In this document: piece after piece, positions 7,590-43,782 of the stretch | Layout of the letters: each line of letters opens with the position of its first letter | Position numbering within the stretch: position 1 is the first letter of the stretch | Source of the DNA: a virus | Virus record (IMG/VR): IMGVR_UViG_3300036860_000129 | Span: 1 to 53,419 of that record | Length of the DNA stretch: 53,419 nt | Strand: one strand, 5' to 3' | The notes under the pieces: generated by a model | Database searches by the model: none | Told to the model about the DNA's origin: nothing | Seen by the model: the letters and a program-made list of their open reading frames with translations, nothing else | Translations under genes and position numbers: made by a program

Positions 7590-7925
7590 TCAGATGCTCG
7601 GCATGGGACCGACGCCGATCGAGACGTCGAAGTTGATCTCTACGGACTCGTACCGGTTCGTGCCGTTGCCCACGATGAATGCGGCCCGGTAGTGACCGGC
7701 CGTGGCGAACTCGTTCCCGGTGAAGGTGTACCGGGCCTTGCCATCGATTCCGGTGGGAATCGAGGCGTTCGCGCTCACCGCAATACCGTCGTGCTCCTGA
7801 TAGTTGAACTTCGCGGTGAACCCGGTGATGTTGATCACCGTGCCGTTGGCATCGAGGAACTGATACTCCAGTGGAGACGGCTTCTCCCCGATCACGTAGG
7901 GCTCACTCAAACTGATCTTACTCAT
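7590..7925 (-). CDS. BppU-like / Ig-like structural protein
   Basis: 111 residues. The opening, with a conserved PLEYQFLDANGTVINITGF stretch followed by a second strand set (ARYTFTGNEFATAGHYRAAF), resembles the N-terminal Ig-like domain of phage baseplate upper proteins: a Gly-x-Asp turn, then AGHYRAAFIVG, the typical closing strand. It overlaps the stop of the upstream 663-residue gene by four bases. It may be an adaptor that attaches the repeat protein or the SGNH hydrolase to the particle. The match is to the domain type only. Confidence 0.55.
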   Translation of the reverse strand: MSKISLSEPYVIGEKPSPLEYQFLDANGTVINITGFTAKFNYQEHDGIAVSANASIPTGIDGKARYTFTGNEFATAGHYRAAFIVGNGTNRYESVEINFDVSIGVGPMPSI

Positions 7926-9913
7926 GGCTCCCTCCCACTGATCGCGGAGTCGGATTCCGTTCCTGATGTTGAAGATAGCGGCTGACGGCCGGAGATCGGT
8001 CCGGTCTCCTGACCACTGGCGGACACGGTCGGCTCCCGTCCGTAGACCTGGCCGATCGGCTCGCGTCCGGAGATCACCGTGGGGGTGCCGGTCTGCGGGA
8101 GGACGACCGAGGCGCCGAGAGCGGCAACCGCTACGATCGCCGTGGCGGGGAGGGCGGAAATTCCGGTTAGCGACGATCGGCCGGAGATCGTCACTGCTGC
8201 CGTCCCCGCCAGCGCCCCTGCACCGGCCACCGGTCCGGGCGCGCTCATGAGGATCGCGGCCACCCCGGCGTTCGCCACGGTCGCTCCGGGAACGCTGGCC
8301 TGCTGAGCCGTGAAGCTCACCGGCGCGGCATTCGGAAGCATCGCGAGGCCGACGGCCGGACCCCGGGCCGACACAGAGACCGAGGCGGTACCGGGGAGAG
8401 CACCCACGGCCGCCAGGGAGCCGCGCGCCGTCAGGGTGATGGAACTGGTCGCGGGGAGGACCGAGAGGCCCGCAGAAGCGCTCTGAGCGCTTTGGATCAC
8501 TGTTGCCGTTCCGGGGAGAGCCCCGAGAGCGGCCGTCGGGCTCTGCGCCGTAACGATCATTGAGGCCACCCCGGCAACCACCGTGGCGTCATTGGTGACA
8601 TATCCCTCCGGAGCACCGGCCCAGGGGATCATTCCGCCGTACGGATCATCCGGCAGGAAGAGCGGGACGGAAGGATCAGCCGTTCCCTCGATGACGATCA
8701 CGGAAGGGGCCAGGCCCGCGAGGATGACCGGCGCGGCCGATGGGAAGATCCCGAGACCGGTCGTTTCCTGCTGAACCGATGTAGTGACCGAGGCGGTACC
8801 GGGGAGAGCCCCGAGCCCGGACGTGGCGTCCCGGCCGGTAAAGGTGACCGAGGACACCCCGGCCGTTGTAGCGATCCCCGCCGTAGGAATCTGCGCGGTC
8901 AGACTCACCACGGCCGCGCCGGGGAGCACCGCGATGCCGACCGAGGAATCCCGCGCGGTGAAGGTGACCGAGGCGGTACCGGGGAGACCGCCCACGGCCG
9001 CCTGCGGCGCGTTCGCTGTCAGGGTGATGGAGCTGGTCGCGGGCAGTGATTCAAGGCCCGCAGACGGCCCCTGGGCCACGAACGAGATCGCGGCGACTCC
9101 GGCGTTCGCGGTCGTGGCCACAGTAGTGATCGAGTCCGGCGCTCCGGCCCATGGCTGCATCCCGCCGGTGACATCGTCCGGAGTAAGCAGCGGGGGAGAA
9201 ACCGCGTACGGATCATCGGCTGTGACCGCAGGATTCAGACCGGTCTCGCCCGCTAGCGCGAGGAGCAGGAACGCGCTCCGGGTCGGGATCACGAAAGTGA
9301 TCGAGGCGGTACCCGCGTCCACGATCACGTCGTGCTGCCAGTCGTCCACCCCGCCCCACGGAGCCAGGGCGACCGGATCCCTGCCCGGGAGGAACAGCCG
9401 GTCAAAATCAGCCGCGACCGGCAGACCGAAGAACACCTGATCGATGTTGGCCGTCTGCGTGCTGGACAGACCGGAACGGAGCTGGAGGAACAGACGAGCC
9501 ACACCCGCGAGAGCCGGAGCGGTCTGTGTGGACTTGATCTCGGTCCAGGTGGATGCGGGGACAGTAGTGTCCGGCCCGGTCACAGTGCTGATGAACGTCG
9601 TGTTGTTCGACTGGTACCAGTCGTTCTGTGCGTGCCACACCGTGTTCGCCACGGTGCTGAAGACCCAGAACGAGTACACGTACGTCGTCCCCGGAGAGAC
9701 GACCGGAGCGTTGCCGGTGGTCGTCAGGCCACCCATGGCCACATCGCCCGCAGTGGCGTTGCGTGTGGTCAGGATCGACTTCGAGCCTTCGAGGAAGGTG
9801 CCGGATCCCTGGACGACCGAGGATGCGCCATTGGCGAAATCGGCCCAGTTGCCGATCGAGGTCTCTACCGACTGGTGGTTATAGCTGAGCAGGTTCCCGG
9901 GGATGAGAGCCAC
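7922..9913 (-). CDS. surface/fibre protein: CBM-like head plus ~20-residue tandem repeats
   Basis: 663 residues. Residues 1-165 resemble a carbohydrate-binding (CBM4/9-like) jelly roll: a WADFANGASSVVQGSGTF start, YVYSFWVFSTVANT, and RLFLQLRSGLSSTQTANIDQ. The remainder is built of about twenty imperfect ~20-residue units of the form GLGALPGTASVTFTAR, twice interrupted by a longer module with the PDD-x-x-GGMxPWAGAPxxxxT pattern. The end has SGREP/SGRQP motifs. At DNA level the repeats are also close: CGAGGCGGTACCGGGGAGA occurs at 8381, 8789 and 8969. It probably binds host glycans or decorates the capsid; repeat number may vary by recombination. No enzyme motif was seen. Confidence 0.6.
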   Translation of the reverse strand: MALIPGNLLSYNHQSVETSIGNWADFANGASSVVQGSGTFLEGSKSILTTRNATAGDVAMGGLTTTGNAPVVSPGTTYVYSFWVFSTVANTVWHAQNDWYQSNNTTFISTVTGPDTTVPASTWTEIKSTQTAPALAGVARLFLQLRSGLSSTQTANIDQVFFGLPVAADFDRLFLPGRDPVALAPWGGVDDWQHDVIVDAGTASITFVIPTRSAFLLLALAGETGLNPAVTADDPYAVSPPLLTPDDVTGGMQPWAGAPDSITTVATTANAGVAAISFVAQGPSAGLESLPATSSITLTANAPQAAVGGLPGTASVTFTARDSSVGIAVLPGAAVVSLTAQIPTAGIATTAGVSSVTFTGRDATSGLGALPGTASVTTSVQQETTGLGIFPSAAPVILAGLAPSVIVIEGTADPSVPLFLPDDPYGGMIPWAGAPEGYVTNDATVVAGVASMIVTAQSPTAALGALPGTATVIQSAQSASAGLSVLPATSSITLTARGSLAAVGALPGTASVSVSARGPAVGLAMLPNAAPVSFTAQQASVPGATVANAGVAAILMSAPGPVAGAGALAGTAAVTISGRSSLTGISALPATAIVAVAALGASVVLPQTGTPTVISGREPIGQVYGREPTVSASGQETGPISGRQPLSSTSGTESDSAISGREP

Positions 9914-39459: not shown

Positions 39460-42400
39460 TCAGTCCTTGCGGTAACACTCACCCCAGTTGTGACCGGACC
39501 GGCTCGCACCCCACGTGAACGGGACCCCGCCCTTTTCGATCGTCATGTCGGAGATCACCATGCGCTTGACGTCCTCCACGTCCGCCTCGGGGATGCTCAT
39601 CACGATCTCGTCGTGCACGATCACCCGGAGCATGGGGATCAGCTCGGGGTGGTTCCGCTTCATGGTCAGCAGGCCCTCCGCCACCACGTCCCGGGTCATG
39701 CTCTGACCGTGACCGGCCGGAGCCTGTGTGTACTCGCGGCCCTCGTCGCACCGGAAGTGACGCCCGAACCCGTTGTCGAGCAGCGCGCGTCCCTCGGCCC
39801 GGATCCGCACCTCGTGCTGCCAGTCGACCACCTGCCCGAACTGTCGGCGCATCGTCTCGTCGACCCGCTGCGCCGCCTCGAACGTGATCCCCGGGGTTCC
39901 GGCCAGACCGTTGACCGAGCGGCCGTACAGCCACCCGAGGTCACAGCTCTTGGCATGGAACCGGTACGGGTCGTCATGGCGGCCGAACGCGAGATCGCTG
40001 ATCTCGTTGTGGATGTCCCGGGCAGGATCCTGCATGATCGCCAGGAGTCCCGGGTCCTGCGAGTGGAACGCCACGCACCGGATGTCCACCTGATCCGCGT
40101 CGAAGCTCACCAGGACGTGACCGGGGTCGGGGAGCATGTAAATCCGGTCAGAGTCCTCATAGCTCTTCTTCAGCACAGTCACCCCGGGCTCGGTCACCGA
40201 CCACCGGCCGAACGCCTGGAACGGCTCGAACTTGGGATGGACCCGGTCCCCCATGGTGCAGCGCATGATGTTGGCCGCGTTGGACCTCAGCCCGTTCATG
40301 TCCTGGACGGAGCGGATGATCAGCGCCGCGTCCGCCATGCCCTCGGCCTCCGCGTACTCCAGTGCCTCGGACATCAGCTCTTTGCCCAGGGAGAGCGTTC
40401 CGTCCTTGCCCCGGTCCCACTGGTCGAGGGGGAAGCCCATGGCCTTGAGCGCGTTCTCGAACGCGATCTTTCCGGCGGCCGTGCGCTGCGGCGCCTTGCT
40501 GACGCTCTTGCCGTCCTTCGTGTGAGTGGGGAACCCGTACTGCTCGTGCAGCATCGTCCGGCCCTTCGCCAGCTCGGCCGCCTGCTCCGTGATCCGGCGC
40601 TCCAGGGCGGGGACGTCCACCCGGAAGCCTTCGATCGTGGCGCGCGCCGTGATCGCTGCGACTTCCATCTCCCGCCGGTCGTAATCGGTGAGCGGAAGGA
40701 CTTCCGCAAGGCGGAGGGCTTTGATCACGTCGTCTTTGCAGTACTCGTGATAACGGGGGTCGGAATACCGGATGTGGCCCCAGCCGCCGTATTCGTCGGC
40801 GAGCTTCTTTCCGAGGTCCGACTTGTGATCACCGAGGTGGCGCTGACACAGGCTTTCCAGGTTGTACCGCTTGAAATGCGGTCCGGCTTTCGTCTCCCAC
40901 GAAGTGGGGGGATCCGCCTGGAATGCCACGAACCGGATGTCGTGCGCACGGGGAATGGTCTGCTCGACCGGGATTCCCTCGTGGACATCGAGGGCGGGGA
41001 GATCGAACAGCGCGAGGTTGACCCCGACGATCGTGTTCGGGCCGGAGATCCTTTCCAGTACCTCGGCGCGGCCGGTCGCGACGTCGTCCATGGGTCCCGT
41101 GCCGACGAGGCGGACGTACGGACCGAGGACGACCGGCTCGTGACGGAAGAGATCATCCGCGTCCCATGCCTCAAGGTCGAGCCCGACCGGCACGGAGGGA
41201 GCCGGGGGCTCATGATCGGCGAACGGGTCGGGGAGGTATTCCTCCGCCGGTGTGGGTTGTGCACCAGCCGGACGCACCTTCTGACCTGCTGGTGTGGGAA
41301 GTGTGGGCACATCTTCACTTTTGCCTATGGGCGGGAGTGTGCCGGAGGGGGCCTCACCGCCGGTGTCCTGGTCTGTCCGGGTTTCTATCGGAGATGTCCC
41401 GGTTTCATCTGATTCAGAATCGGACGTTTCGGAAGTGTGGGGTGGTGTAGGACATTTGGGATTCTCCTGGTAACCCCTAGGCGATGACTCAGTTGACTCG
41501 ATCCGACCAAGATCATCTTTCTGGATCACACACTCTGTGCCGCCTATACCCTTTACCAGGGAGTGTGGGTCACTACCCACACCGCGCACATCGGATGAAA
41601 CCGGACTATTTCCAGTAGAAACCGGGACATTTGCACTGTCCTGGTTTGCCCCAGGTGTGGGTTCCTTGTCCGGATTGTCGGTGTTGGTTGCCCGGACGGT
41701 GACAATCTCTCGGTCCTCCCCGATGTGGGTTGTTACGTTCAGCCCTGCGTTCTTGTTCCGGTGGGAGAGTCGGACATCTCCCACACCCGGGATGGACCGG
41801 AGCCGCTCGGAGAATTTCGGACGGCTCATCACGTTCGCCGGGGAGTCATCGCGTGCCCAGATCTTGAATGCGGTGTAGAGCGAGGACACCGAGTCACCGG
41901 CCTCGGGCCCGACCATCCGGCCGACCGCCTCGGGGTGCACGTCGCACCGCAGAGCCACCCAGCGGGCGACGCGGTCCGACGAGGTCTCGAACTCCTTCTG
42001 AGCGTCCGGGTCCGAGGGGAGATAGAGACCGCGCTCGGAGAACTTCCGCCAGGCTCCGACCCACCGGCGCAGGATGCCCGGCAGCTCTTCGCGGATCATC
42101 CGCTCTTCGATCTCCGGCTTTTCGTTCCCGGCGAACGACCGGTCGAACTTGAAGGGGGCGATGCGCTGTACATAGGCCCGGGAGGTCTCACTCACAGTGG
42201 GAACCTCGTTCGCACTGAAAGCGAAGAGAGCCCGATTGGTGAAGGTGAACGTCTTCCCGTATTTCCGGTTCGCCTGGATCGGATCCTCACCGGTGAGTCT
42301 TTTGAAGAGCGAGACGTCCTCGATATGTGCGGCCGGTACTTCCGAGGCGGAATTGAGCATCTTGCCGTACAGCTCGGCCGCCATGAAACGGTCTTCCACG

Positions 42401-43782
42401 AGCTGGTGCAGACCGACGGCGGAGGTGTTGAGCTTTCCGGCGATCTCCATCATGATCCGCAGGAACGTCGACTTCCCCGAGTGGGTGGGGCCGAACAGGA
42501 ACGCCTGCTTCAGTGGGGTACGGCTCGGGTCCAGCATGGTGGAGGCGATCTCTTCGAGTGCCTCGGCCTGGCCAGGGATCACGTCGTACAGCCACGCCTC
42601 GTACGTCGGGCAGACCGCGTCCGGGTCCCACCCCACCGGAATCTGAACGGTGCTAAGATACTTCGGATCATGGGGGAGCATCTCCCCGGTCCTCAGATCG
42701 ATCATGCATGAAGCCGTGTTCAGGAGAGGCTCCGTGGCCTTGCCTCCGACCCGGAGTCCCCGTCCGGACAGCTCGCCGATCAAGAACTCTTCGATGGTCT
42801 GGCGCCACTGCGGCCGGTAGTCCTCCCCGAGCAGATCTTTGACCTTTTCGAAGAGCGGTTCCTTTCCGACGTCGATCCGGAAGGCGCCGTTGCGGTACAG
42901 GGCGATCATGGATCCGGCCGCGAGCGCGGCGGGCTGACTGTCCAGTGCCGCCAGGGCCGTGGTGCGCGCGAGGAACTTCCCCTGATCATTGAAGTACTTG
43001 CTGTTGCTCTTCCGGTTGGGAGCGCGGCCGAGCTTGGTCGTGGCAAGATCACTGATCCGCTGAATGTAGCTGGTCCGCTTGTCCTTCGGCCTCCGCCCGA
43101 GAACATCGTCCAGTCCCTCTTTGTCCTTCGCTCCGGCCAGCTTGGCGAACACGATCTCGTCCGCGCCCTCGACCTCAAGAGCATCCTTGAGTCCGGCCGC
43201 CGCGTCGTAGACACCCCGGTTCGAGGTGAAGTCCGCGTCAAAGAGAATGATCACTCTGCGGCCGTCGGCCCAGGTGAGATCCGTCCCGATCCAGTTGTTG
43301 CAGCCGGGGACCGCGACCACGCCCCACCCCTCCGGTGCCCAGGCCGCCGCGCTGACCCCCTGCTTGGAGCCCTCGACGAACAGATACGGATCATCACTGT
43401 TCCGGGGCGTGCGGAGGTGGTTCAGGAACGTCCCCGACTCCTTTGGAGCCAGGTACTTATGGGTCTTGCCGTCCGGGGTGGTGATCGCTTCGTCCGGCCG
43501 GTACTGCGGGATGTCCCGGTCAAGATCCTTCCAGGTGAAGATCATCCCCCTCTCGGCCTCACCGAGGAAGCCGTTCCACGGGCCGTAGATCTCGTCAGGG
43601 ATGTGCTCCGGCTCCGCCACGGCCGTGATCCCGAAGCGGCGCGCATTCTCGGGGGAGATCGCGGCGTCTTGAAGGATCTTGAGCGACTGGAGGCTGAACG
43701 GCCGCCCCAGTGCATCGAGAACTCGATCTTGTGCCCCTGGCCCCGCGTGACCGTTTGAGGCCGCGTCAATGTCAGTGGTCAT
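39460..43782 (-). CDS. primase-helicase / exonuclease / family A DNA polymerase fusion
   Basis: 1440 residues. ~100-235: Toprim-like primase region (VVAVPGCNNWIGTDLTW; VIILFDAD near 180). ~320-620: D5-type SF3 helicase with Walker A FLFGPTHSGKST near 430 and a following FAFSANEVPTV. ~620-680: winged-helix-like end. ~690-860: Ser/Thr/Pro-rich linker, whose DNA carries iterons. ~865-1050: proofreading exonuclease (DLEAWDADDLF; ALFDLPALD; YCKDDVIKAL). ~1060-1440: PolA with motif A SFDADQVDIR, motif B KSCDLGWLYG and motif C VHDEIV. These activities are usually separate proteins, so one chain could unwind, prime and copy DNA. Motif A reads DADQVDIR where DYSQIELR is typical, with the Asp kept. Downstream of the regulator gene on the same strand. 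Confidence 0.88.
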   Translation of the reverse strand: MTTDIDAASNGHAGPGAQDRVLDALGRPFSLQSLKILQDAAISPENARRFGITAVAEPEHIPDEIYGPWNGFLGEAERGMIFTWKDLDRDIPQYRPDEAITTPDGKTHKYLAPKESGTFLNHLRTPRNSDDPYLFVEGSKQGVSAAAWAPEGWGVVAVPGCNNWIGTDLTWADGRRVIILFDADFTSNRGVYDAAAGLKDALEVEGADEIVFAKLAGAKDKEGLDDVLGRRPKDKRTSYIQRISDLATTKLGRAPNRKSNSKYFNDQGKFLARTTALAALDSQPAALAAGSMIALYRNGAFRIDVGKEPLFEKVKDLLGEDYRPQWRQTIEEFLIGELSGRGLRVGGKATEPLLNTASCMIDLRTGEMLPHDPKYLSTVQIPVGWDPDAVCPTYEAWLYDVIPGQAEALEEIASTMLDPSRTPLKQAFLFGPTHSGKSTFLRIMMEIAGKLNTSAVGLHQLVEDRFMAAELYGKMLNSASEVPAAHIEDVSLFKRLTGEDPIQANRKYGKTFTFTNRALFAFSANEVPTVSETSRAYVQRIAPFKFDRSFAGNEKPEIEERMIREELPGILRRWVGAWRKFSERGLYLPSDPDAQKEFETSSDRVARWVALRCDVHPEAVGRMVGPEAGDSVSSLYTAFKIWARDDSPANVMSRPKFSERLRSIPGVGDVRLSHRNKNAGLNVTTHIGEDREIVTVRATNTDNPDKEPTPGANQDSANVPVSTGNSPVSSDVRGVGSDPHSLVKGIGGTECVIQKDDLGRIESTESSPRGYQENPKCPTPPHTSETSDSESDETGTSPIETRTDQDTGGEAPSGTLPPIGKSEDVPTLPTPAGQKVRPAGAQPTPAEEYLPDPFADHEPPAPSVPVGLDLEAWDADDLFRHEPVVLGPYVRLVGTGPMDDVATGRAEVLERISGPNTIVGVNLALFDLPALDVHEGIPVEQTIPRAHDIRFVAFQADPPTSWETKAGPHFKRYNLESLCQRHLGDHKSDLGKKLADEYGGWGHIRYSDPRYHEYCKDDVIKALRLAEVLPLTDYDRREMEVAAITARATIEGFRVDVPALERRITEQAAELAKGRTMLHEQYGFPTHTKDGKSVSKAPQRTAAGKIAFENALKAMGFPLDQWDRGKDGTLSLGKELMSEALEYAEAEGMADAALIIRSVQDMNGLRSNAANIMRCTMGDRVHPKFEPFQAFGRWSVTEPGVTVLKKSYEDSDRIYMLPDPGHVLVSFDADQVDIRCVAFHSQDPGLLAIMQDPARDIHNEISDLAFGRHDDPYRFHAKSCDLGWLYGRSVNGLAGTPGITFEAAQRVDETMRRQFGQVVDWQHEVRIRAEGRALLDNGFGRHFRCDEGREYTQAPAGHGQSMTRDVVAEGLLTMKRNHPELIPMLRVIVHDEIVMSIPEADVEDVKRMVISDMTIEKGGVPFTWGASRSGHNWGECYRKD
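41250..41786. repeat. iteron-like cluster, candidate replication origin
   Basis: Inside the linker-coding part of the replisome gene. GTGTGGG occurs at 41250, 41292, 41301, 41435, 41563 and 41655, and inverted at 41576 and 41780. Two copies form a perfect hairpin GTGTGGGT-CACT-ACCCACAC (41563-41582). TGTCCCGGTTTC (41395-41406) is exactly inverted at 41618-41629, with variants at 41374-41385 and 41597-41606. This part is also AT-richer than its surroundings. Confidence 0.6.

Follow-up and report, generated by a model that had tools for sequence, protein, structure and literature searches.

Inverted iterons and a likely replication origin in the linker-coding DNA of a phage replisome gene

The locus considered here raises the question of whether a stretch of coding DNA that specifies a low-complexity protein linker could also serve as the replication origin of the phage that carries it. 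The window, i.e., the whole stretch of DNA that was analysed, is the 53,419-base virus record IMGVR_UViG_3300036860_000129. The annotated phages closest to it are Streptomyces phages of the genus Woodruffvirus, in which the primase and DNA polymerase I are encoded by separate adjoining genes, whereas the window encodes both in one protein of 1440 residues.

The fused replisome gene and its putative initiator

The product of the fused gene associates, in this order, a TOPRIM primase, an SF3 (P4/D5-type) helicase, a predicted winged helix, a linker and a family A DNA polymerase. The limits of these parts in the window are the following.

39460..43782, minus strand: fused replisome gene, 1440 aa (ORF, translation, Pfam/PHROGs/NCBIfam)
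41713..43782, minus strand: primase-helicase part, residues 1-690, putative initiator (alignments, AlphaFold2 model, 7ola and 2au3 matches)
41713..42009, minus strand: C-terminal domain predicted to be a winged helix (residues about 592-690), immediately 5' to the linker (AlphaFold2 models)
41233..41712, minus strand: low-complexity linker with the origin-like element, residues about 691-850 (translation; alignment with relative L008)
39460..41196, minus strand: family A DNA polymerase part, residues about 863-1440 (PF00476, E 4e-24; phrog_17)

The AlphaFold2 model of residues 1-700 has a pLDDT of 87.5, with values below 50 from residue 691. Within this model, residues 22-254 align with the DnaG-type TOPRIM primase 2au3 (Z 14.5, rmsd 3.6, 204 aligned) and residues 259-689 match the SaPI5 primase-helicase 7ola (Z 31.7), which is the closest solved structure by both sequence and fold. 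Furthermore, residues 353-657 belong to the NCBIfam family TIGR01613 (Primase_Cterm, P4 family), with 150 bits for a cut-off of 108.7. Residues 592-690 are predicted to form a winged helix (three helices and a wing, pLDDT near 90) that ends where the linker starts; searched alone, this domain finds its best but weak matches (E 0.015-0.05) in the winged helices of RFX DNA-binding domains. The protein is a P4-family TOPRIM primase-SF3 helicase and a putative initiator of the P4/SaPI kind; its architecture is shown as a prediction, and DNA binding by the winged helix is inferred.

Elsewhere in the record, a 663-aa minus-strand ORF (7922-9913) made of repeated GLxALPGTASVTxTA-like units constitutes its most repeat-rich DNA. 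This ORF probably encodes a virion surface or fibre protein.

Iterons and a long inverted repeat in the linker-coding DNA

A preliminary description had counted eight GTGTGGG copies, six direct and two inverted, within 537 bp, and this count holds exactly (41250-41786, six on the plus and two on the minus strand). It had also reported a perfect hairpin of two of these copies, which is confirmed (GTGTGGGT-CACT-ACCCACAC, start 41563), and an exactly inverted TGTCCCGGTTTC pair, which is confirmed in its positions as well. Its placing of the repeats inside the linker-coding part holds only partly, as seven of the eight copies lie there and that at 41780-41786 belongs to winged-helix codons. The main structure, a 40-nt inverted repeat, had been overlooked. 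The features of the element are the following.

41250..41256, plus strand: GTGTGGG copy 1, read as PTP
41281..41288, minus strand: CAGGTCAG word, also present in the linker of L008 and in the inverted repeats of Woodruffvirus
41292..41298, plus strand: GTGTGGG copy 2, read as PTP, 9 bp from copy 3
41301..41307, plus strand: GTGTGGG copy 3, read as PTL, at a 17-nt block (CCCACACTTCCCACACC) common to the window and L008
41374..41413, minus strand: long inverted repeat, right arm in coding sense
41414..41589, no strand: low-GC spacer, 176 nt, 54% GC, candidate unwinding region
41435..41441, plus strand: GTGTGGG copy 4, PHT frame
41563..41569, plus strand: GTGTGGG copy 5, DPH frame, one arm of the perfect hairpin
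41576..41582, minus strand: GTGTGGG copy 6, GVG, opposite arm of the perfect hairpin
41590..41629, minus strand: long inverted repeat, left arm in coding sense, TGTCCCGGTTTC...
41655..41661, plus strand: GTGTGGG copy 7, read as PTP
41780..41786, minus strand: GTGTGGG copy 8, in codons of the conserved winged-helix domain (conserved G666-V667)

GTGTGGG occurs 17 times on both strands of the whole record for a shuffle mean of 11.5, i.e., without genome-wide excess, and its reading as a dispersed repressor site was dropped for this reason. When codons are permuted synonymously inside 41250-41786, 1.8 copies are expected (maximum 6 in 20,000 trials) against the 8 observed; a null with gene-wide codon usage gives 0.49 (maximum 4). 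The seven copies of the linker alone compare with 1.4 (maximum 4 in 1000 synonymous trials). In a scan with a step of 50, every other 537-base window contains at most five copies of any 7-mer. The criterion of an iteron-type origin, short direct and inverted repeats clustered beyond chance, is thus met in the window. It should be emphasized that copy 8 overlaps the conserved GVG codons (residues 666-668); it is therefore probably driven by the protein and probably lies outside the array. Another word, TGTCCNGGTTTC, has three copies in the whole record, all in the linker (41374 and 41395 on the plus strand, 41618-41629 on the minus strand). CAGGTCAG is not significant in the window by itself (1 of 3 copies) and is kept only as a shared word; it was rejected as a universal origin word, being absent from many closer relatives.

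The dominant feature is the inverted repeat 41374-41413 / 41590-41629, whose 40-nt arms are 80% complementary and separated by a spacer of 176. Its score (20.0) is the highest of any long inverted repeat in the 53-kb record, the runner-up reaching 14.0, and exceeds a synonymous null of 9.6 +/- 1.1 (maximum 14.5 in 150 permutations). The DNA element and its excess over the codon nulls are therefore shown. The symmetry of its iterons is below that of the relatives L032, L034 or L025. The lower GC content that had been claimed for the element also holds: the spacer has 54% GC versus 64%, at the 1.3rd percentile among windows of the same length in the record. As a candidate for the easily melted (AT-rich) segment of an origin, this spacer is low in GC for the phage, yet still at 54% in absolute terms. 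It contains AAGATGATCTTG, which is common to the relative L031.

An Rfam search of the linker matched no family and no sigma-70-like promoter was found in it. GC skew, which had been suggested as a check, is flat along the record; the plateau that forms its minimum, at about 40-46 kb, is confounded by a switch in gene strand. It is merely compatible with an origin in the linker, and a replication start at this place, while possible, is not shown.

The element in related loci

A whole-protein search of viral contigs gave no matches and alignments of the primase part were needed to find relatives; searches with primase and polymerase alignments led to several dozen further loci, on metagenomic or isolate contigs without replication data. 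As resemblance of the primase or the polymerase was the basis of their choice, other types of primase are poorly covered, except for L066 and L073. Near-duplicates are present (e.g., L036/L038 and L042/L043; L010, L011 and L015 repeat isolated phages), so that counts do not represent independent events. Besides the window, the gene is fused in L008, L031, L026, L032, L048, L051, L052 and L068, and it is split in most other loci. Fused genes are scattered on the primase tree, which suggests, by eye and without formal test, that fusion or splitting occurred repeatedly.

In 22 of the 42 loci, including both fused and split genes, the best long inverted repeat of the locus lies at most 600 nt after the primase domain, while about 2 would be expected. 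An inverted repeat after the primase is not ranked first in L033, L037, L055, L058, L012 and L013. Many relatives with split genes have the element at this position as well, which indicates that it is tied to the primase-helicase and not to the fusion. Its position depends on the lineage, i.e., upstream of the primase gene, inside it or just downstream. The best inverted repeat of the Woodruffvirus group (arms of 45-116 nt) occupies the divergent intergenic gap immediately 5' of the primase; that of L046 and L047 falls on the stop codon of the primase or directly behind it. On the primase tree, the upstream position corresponds to one clade, the after-stop position to another and the in-gene position to the remaining lineages; the fixed position of the element beside this type of primase is shown.

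Large inverted repeats upstream of the primase, with arms of 67-116 nt, were observed in isolated Streptomyces phages (L004:2438-2739, L005:7835-8111, L006:8009-8238 and L007:7863-8187). They have a centre of alternating GC and repeated words that are specific to the lineage (e.g., TTCCCGCGAA in L005 and GCATGCTCTGTGAA in L007); by inference, they are likely to be the origins of these phages.

For most of the coding tails examined, with L034 and L028 as exceptions, no synonymous permutation reaches the score of the inverted repeat, even where its arms encode unrelated peptides; iteron counts vary among these tails. L034 and L028-L030 carry inverted iterons without a long ungapped inverted repeat. 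The iterons of the arms have opposite directions on the two sides, often with 9-bp steps; they are of the type GTGTGGG-AA-GTGTGGG in the clade of the window and GTGGCAG-AA-GTGGCAG in others. On the coding strand, left iterons usually read GVG and right iterons PTP or PTL, so that the peptide is what both strands of one DNA word spell; PHT, THT, DPH and SHT are other readings. Spacers are among the lowest few percent in GC in most contigs, a feature that is also shown, and measure 37-110 in most relatives and 176-177 in the window and L008. A word containing GATC was considered as a universal spacer signal and rejected: it is found in many spacers without being universal.

Among L025-L030, eight pairs changed on both sides for 5.9 in shuffled data, a value reached in 88 of 500 shuffles, so that pair-level covariation is not significant. 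Its absence in this close group fits conserved protein-binding words better than a base-paired hairpin, without proving it. No correlation between iteron type and winged-helix residues was established, the alignment having been read by eye only.

The nearest relative with a whole gene, L008, has the same fusion and 74% identity overall. Its linker peptide aligns with that of the window at low identity and with many gaps, linker sequences diverging fast. In this linker, GTGTGGG occurs six times, with copies on either strand, and an inverted repeat of 57 nt (spacer 177) is homologous to that of the window (spacer 176); in a hand alignment of the two, 5 of 43 positions changed on both sides of the pair. 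L031, also fused, has the most exact inverted repeat of the surveyed set (L031:1493-1636), with 43-nt arms in perfect complementarity around a 58-nt spacer, in coding DNA. Inverted iterons are thus kept in both relatives despite diverged linker peptides, and this peptide-independent conservation is shown. For example, CAGGTCAGA is translated as AGQ in the window and as PRS or QVR in L008, and CCCACACTTCC as PHTS in one copy of the window and as PTL in L008; for CAGGTCAG and CCCACACTTCC, the reading frame differs between relatives while the DNA word is kept. A check set beforehand was whether relatives keep the peptide without the DNA repeats, and the opposite was found in L008 and L031. The proposal that a DNA constraint explains the linker therefore fits the data, and that of an origin-like function is supported by the relatives, origin function itself being untested.

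The start of the L008 linker also contains five 30-bp tandem units (L008:9074-9243) coding for APVTDGDDRN-like repeats, which are absent from the window.

Three other observations concern the surroundings of the element. L026 and L027 (L026:9062-9341, L027:9035-9832) have near-identical primases (tree branches of 0.004 and 0.005) followed by different polymerases, fused and sharing 62% identity with that of the window in L026, separate and sharing 33% in L027; the origin-linker seems to be a seam for the exchange of polymerase modules. In L066 (5194-5364) and L073 (7590-7734), a window-like polymerase (48-49% identity) lies beside a different primase (25-29%), and the gap between them holds a perfect inverted repeat (17-18 nt, spacer 53-54); L066 also has GCAGGTCAG and ATGATCA. 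Lastly, about 13 of 25 split-gene primase tails have a [DN]P[FW] motif near their end (e.g., ADPFAVEDLGYDF), and the same motif follows the origin-like region of the window (DPFADHE, 41221-41232). It may be a protein-binding motif.

Origin interpretation and rival explanations

The element can be compared with several known systems. SaPI Rep and SCCmec Cch2 bind, through their C-terminal domains, iterons located directly downstream of their own genes (PMC7581432). The window shares with them an SF3/D5-type helicase of the self-loading kind and short iterons that lie 3' of the helicase-coding DNA, which its C-terminal domain would bind by analogy. However, their origin is downstream of the gene whereas that of the window would be inside the coding sequence, and their primase is of the archaeo-eukaryotic type whereas that of the window is TOPRIM. 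AAGTG, the iteron of SCCmec, also occurs within GTGTGGGAAGTGTGGG and GTGGCAGAAGTGGCAG, which may be a coincidence.

The origin of pRN1, which lies immediately 3' of an SF3-winged-helix rep gene and has a stem of 21 nt and a loop of 58 nt, is conserved as a structure and not as a sequence, and is movable (PMC4234260). Its ORF904 likewise has an SF3 helicase, and a C-terminal winged helix that in the window is only predicted, with a large inverted repeat by the rep gene; however, pRN1 lacks iterons, its element is noncoding and its primase is of another family. Of the traits that define a pRN1-type origin, the long inverted repeat by an SF3 rep gene, whose loop should measure around 60 nt, is present, but the noncoding location 3' of this gene is not, the element being in frame in the window and most near relatives. 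The alpha protein of P4 combines a TOPRIM primase, an SF3 helicase and a winged helix that binds origin repeats (PMC4234260), and the window protein matches its family (TIGR01613) but differs in being fused to a polymerase and in the way inverted repeats are arranged in its linker-coding DNA. P4 has a second origin inside the alpha gene.

Phage lambda carries iterons in the middle of its initiator gene O (PMC3985674). This parallel, drawn in the preliminary description, holds for position only: lambda O is an unrelated initiator that works with lambda P and DnaB, whereas that of the window is of the P4/SaPI kind and not lambda O-type, and the four 19-bp lambda iterons are not accompanied by a comparable long inverted repeat. 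GP55 of phage 1706 also joins primase, helicase and polymerase in one protein (PMC12205980), but from other primase and polymerase families; the abstract text searched does not mention an in-gene origin (PMC12205980).

As its neighbourhood and anatomy are those of SaPI, SCCmec and pRN1 and its in-frame position that of lambda O, the element is taken as an in-gene origin. It is likely that the linker element is a phage replication origin in coding DNA, recognised by the encoded winged helix; in the absence of functional data, binding, melting and initiation are inferred. The winged-helix domain, coded immediately upstream, would bind the inverted clusters of short iterons on both sides of the low-GC spacer, which no binding data support yet. 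Helicase rings would load on the two sides of the spacer, which would then open; the primase would lay primers and the polymerase, tethered via the linker, would extend them. The linker peptide, with its Gly-Val-Gly and Pro-Thr-Pro runs, would be largely spelled by DNA words.

Among the rival explanations, the one that survives best, while remaining unlikely, is that the repeats bind another protein, as a repressor/operator array or a partition (centromere-like) site lying beside the primase by chance; partition genes were not searched systematically. Short repeats in inverted orientation are a usual trait of operators and centromeres as well, and the divergent intergenic gap of the Woodruffvirus phages leaves room for the action of a regulator. 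However, wherever it lies (before the primase gene, in it or shortly after it), the element tracks this gene, no sigma-70-like promoter was detected in the linker, and inverted iterons around a low-GC spacer are the anatomy of an origin.

Three other explanations are very unlikely. The inverted repeat could act in RNA, as a long-range mRNA hairpin slowing translation or controlling polymerase synthesis, and its arms are indeed in the transcript between both enzyme parts; but the Woodruffvirus phages have the same kind of element 5' of the primase, in the gap that separates two divergent genes, iterons are repeated within the arms, and there is neither an Rfam match nor a covariation signal. 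The linker could be selected as a peptide in need of PTP and GVG, the DNA repeats following from codon choice, as suggested by the many copies in one preferred frame (GVG left, PTP or PTL right). However, the excess vanishes under synonymous permutation, copies are also read as PHT, THT, DPH and SHT, words survive frame shifts and the inverted repeat exceeds the null even with arms encoding unrelated peptides. Finally, neutral repeat expansion in an unconstrained linker, e.g., by slippage or a small mobile palindrome, could be invoked from the 30-bp tandem repeats of L008 and the fast divergence of linkers, but the same place in many lineages, the inverted orientation, the phasing and the low-GC centre are not expected from slippage.

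The in-gene origin thus remains the preferred reading. A bolder version, in which the linker peptide is a by-product of a relocatable inverted-iteron origin held in frame between initiator and polymerase, and also a seam for polymerase swap or fusion, is conceivable but falls a little short of being favoured.

No mapped origin was found for the phage group of the window in the open-access literature searched. The element gives a testable origin, with its likely initiator, in actinobacterial phages of a broad group to which isolated Streptomyces phages (Woodruffvirus) belong. It would also provide an example of a DNA function shaping a protein linker and a set of natural variants in which the origin takes different places around the same gene; the iteron sequence and the winged-helix domain are suggested as co-evolving parts, testable in laboratory phages.
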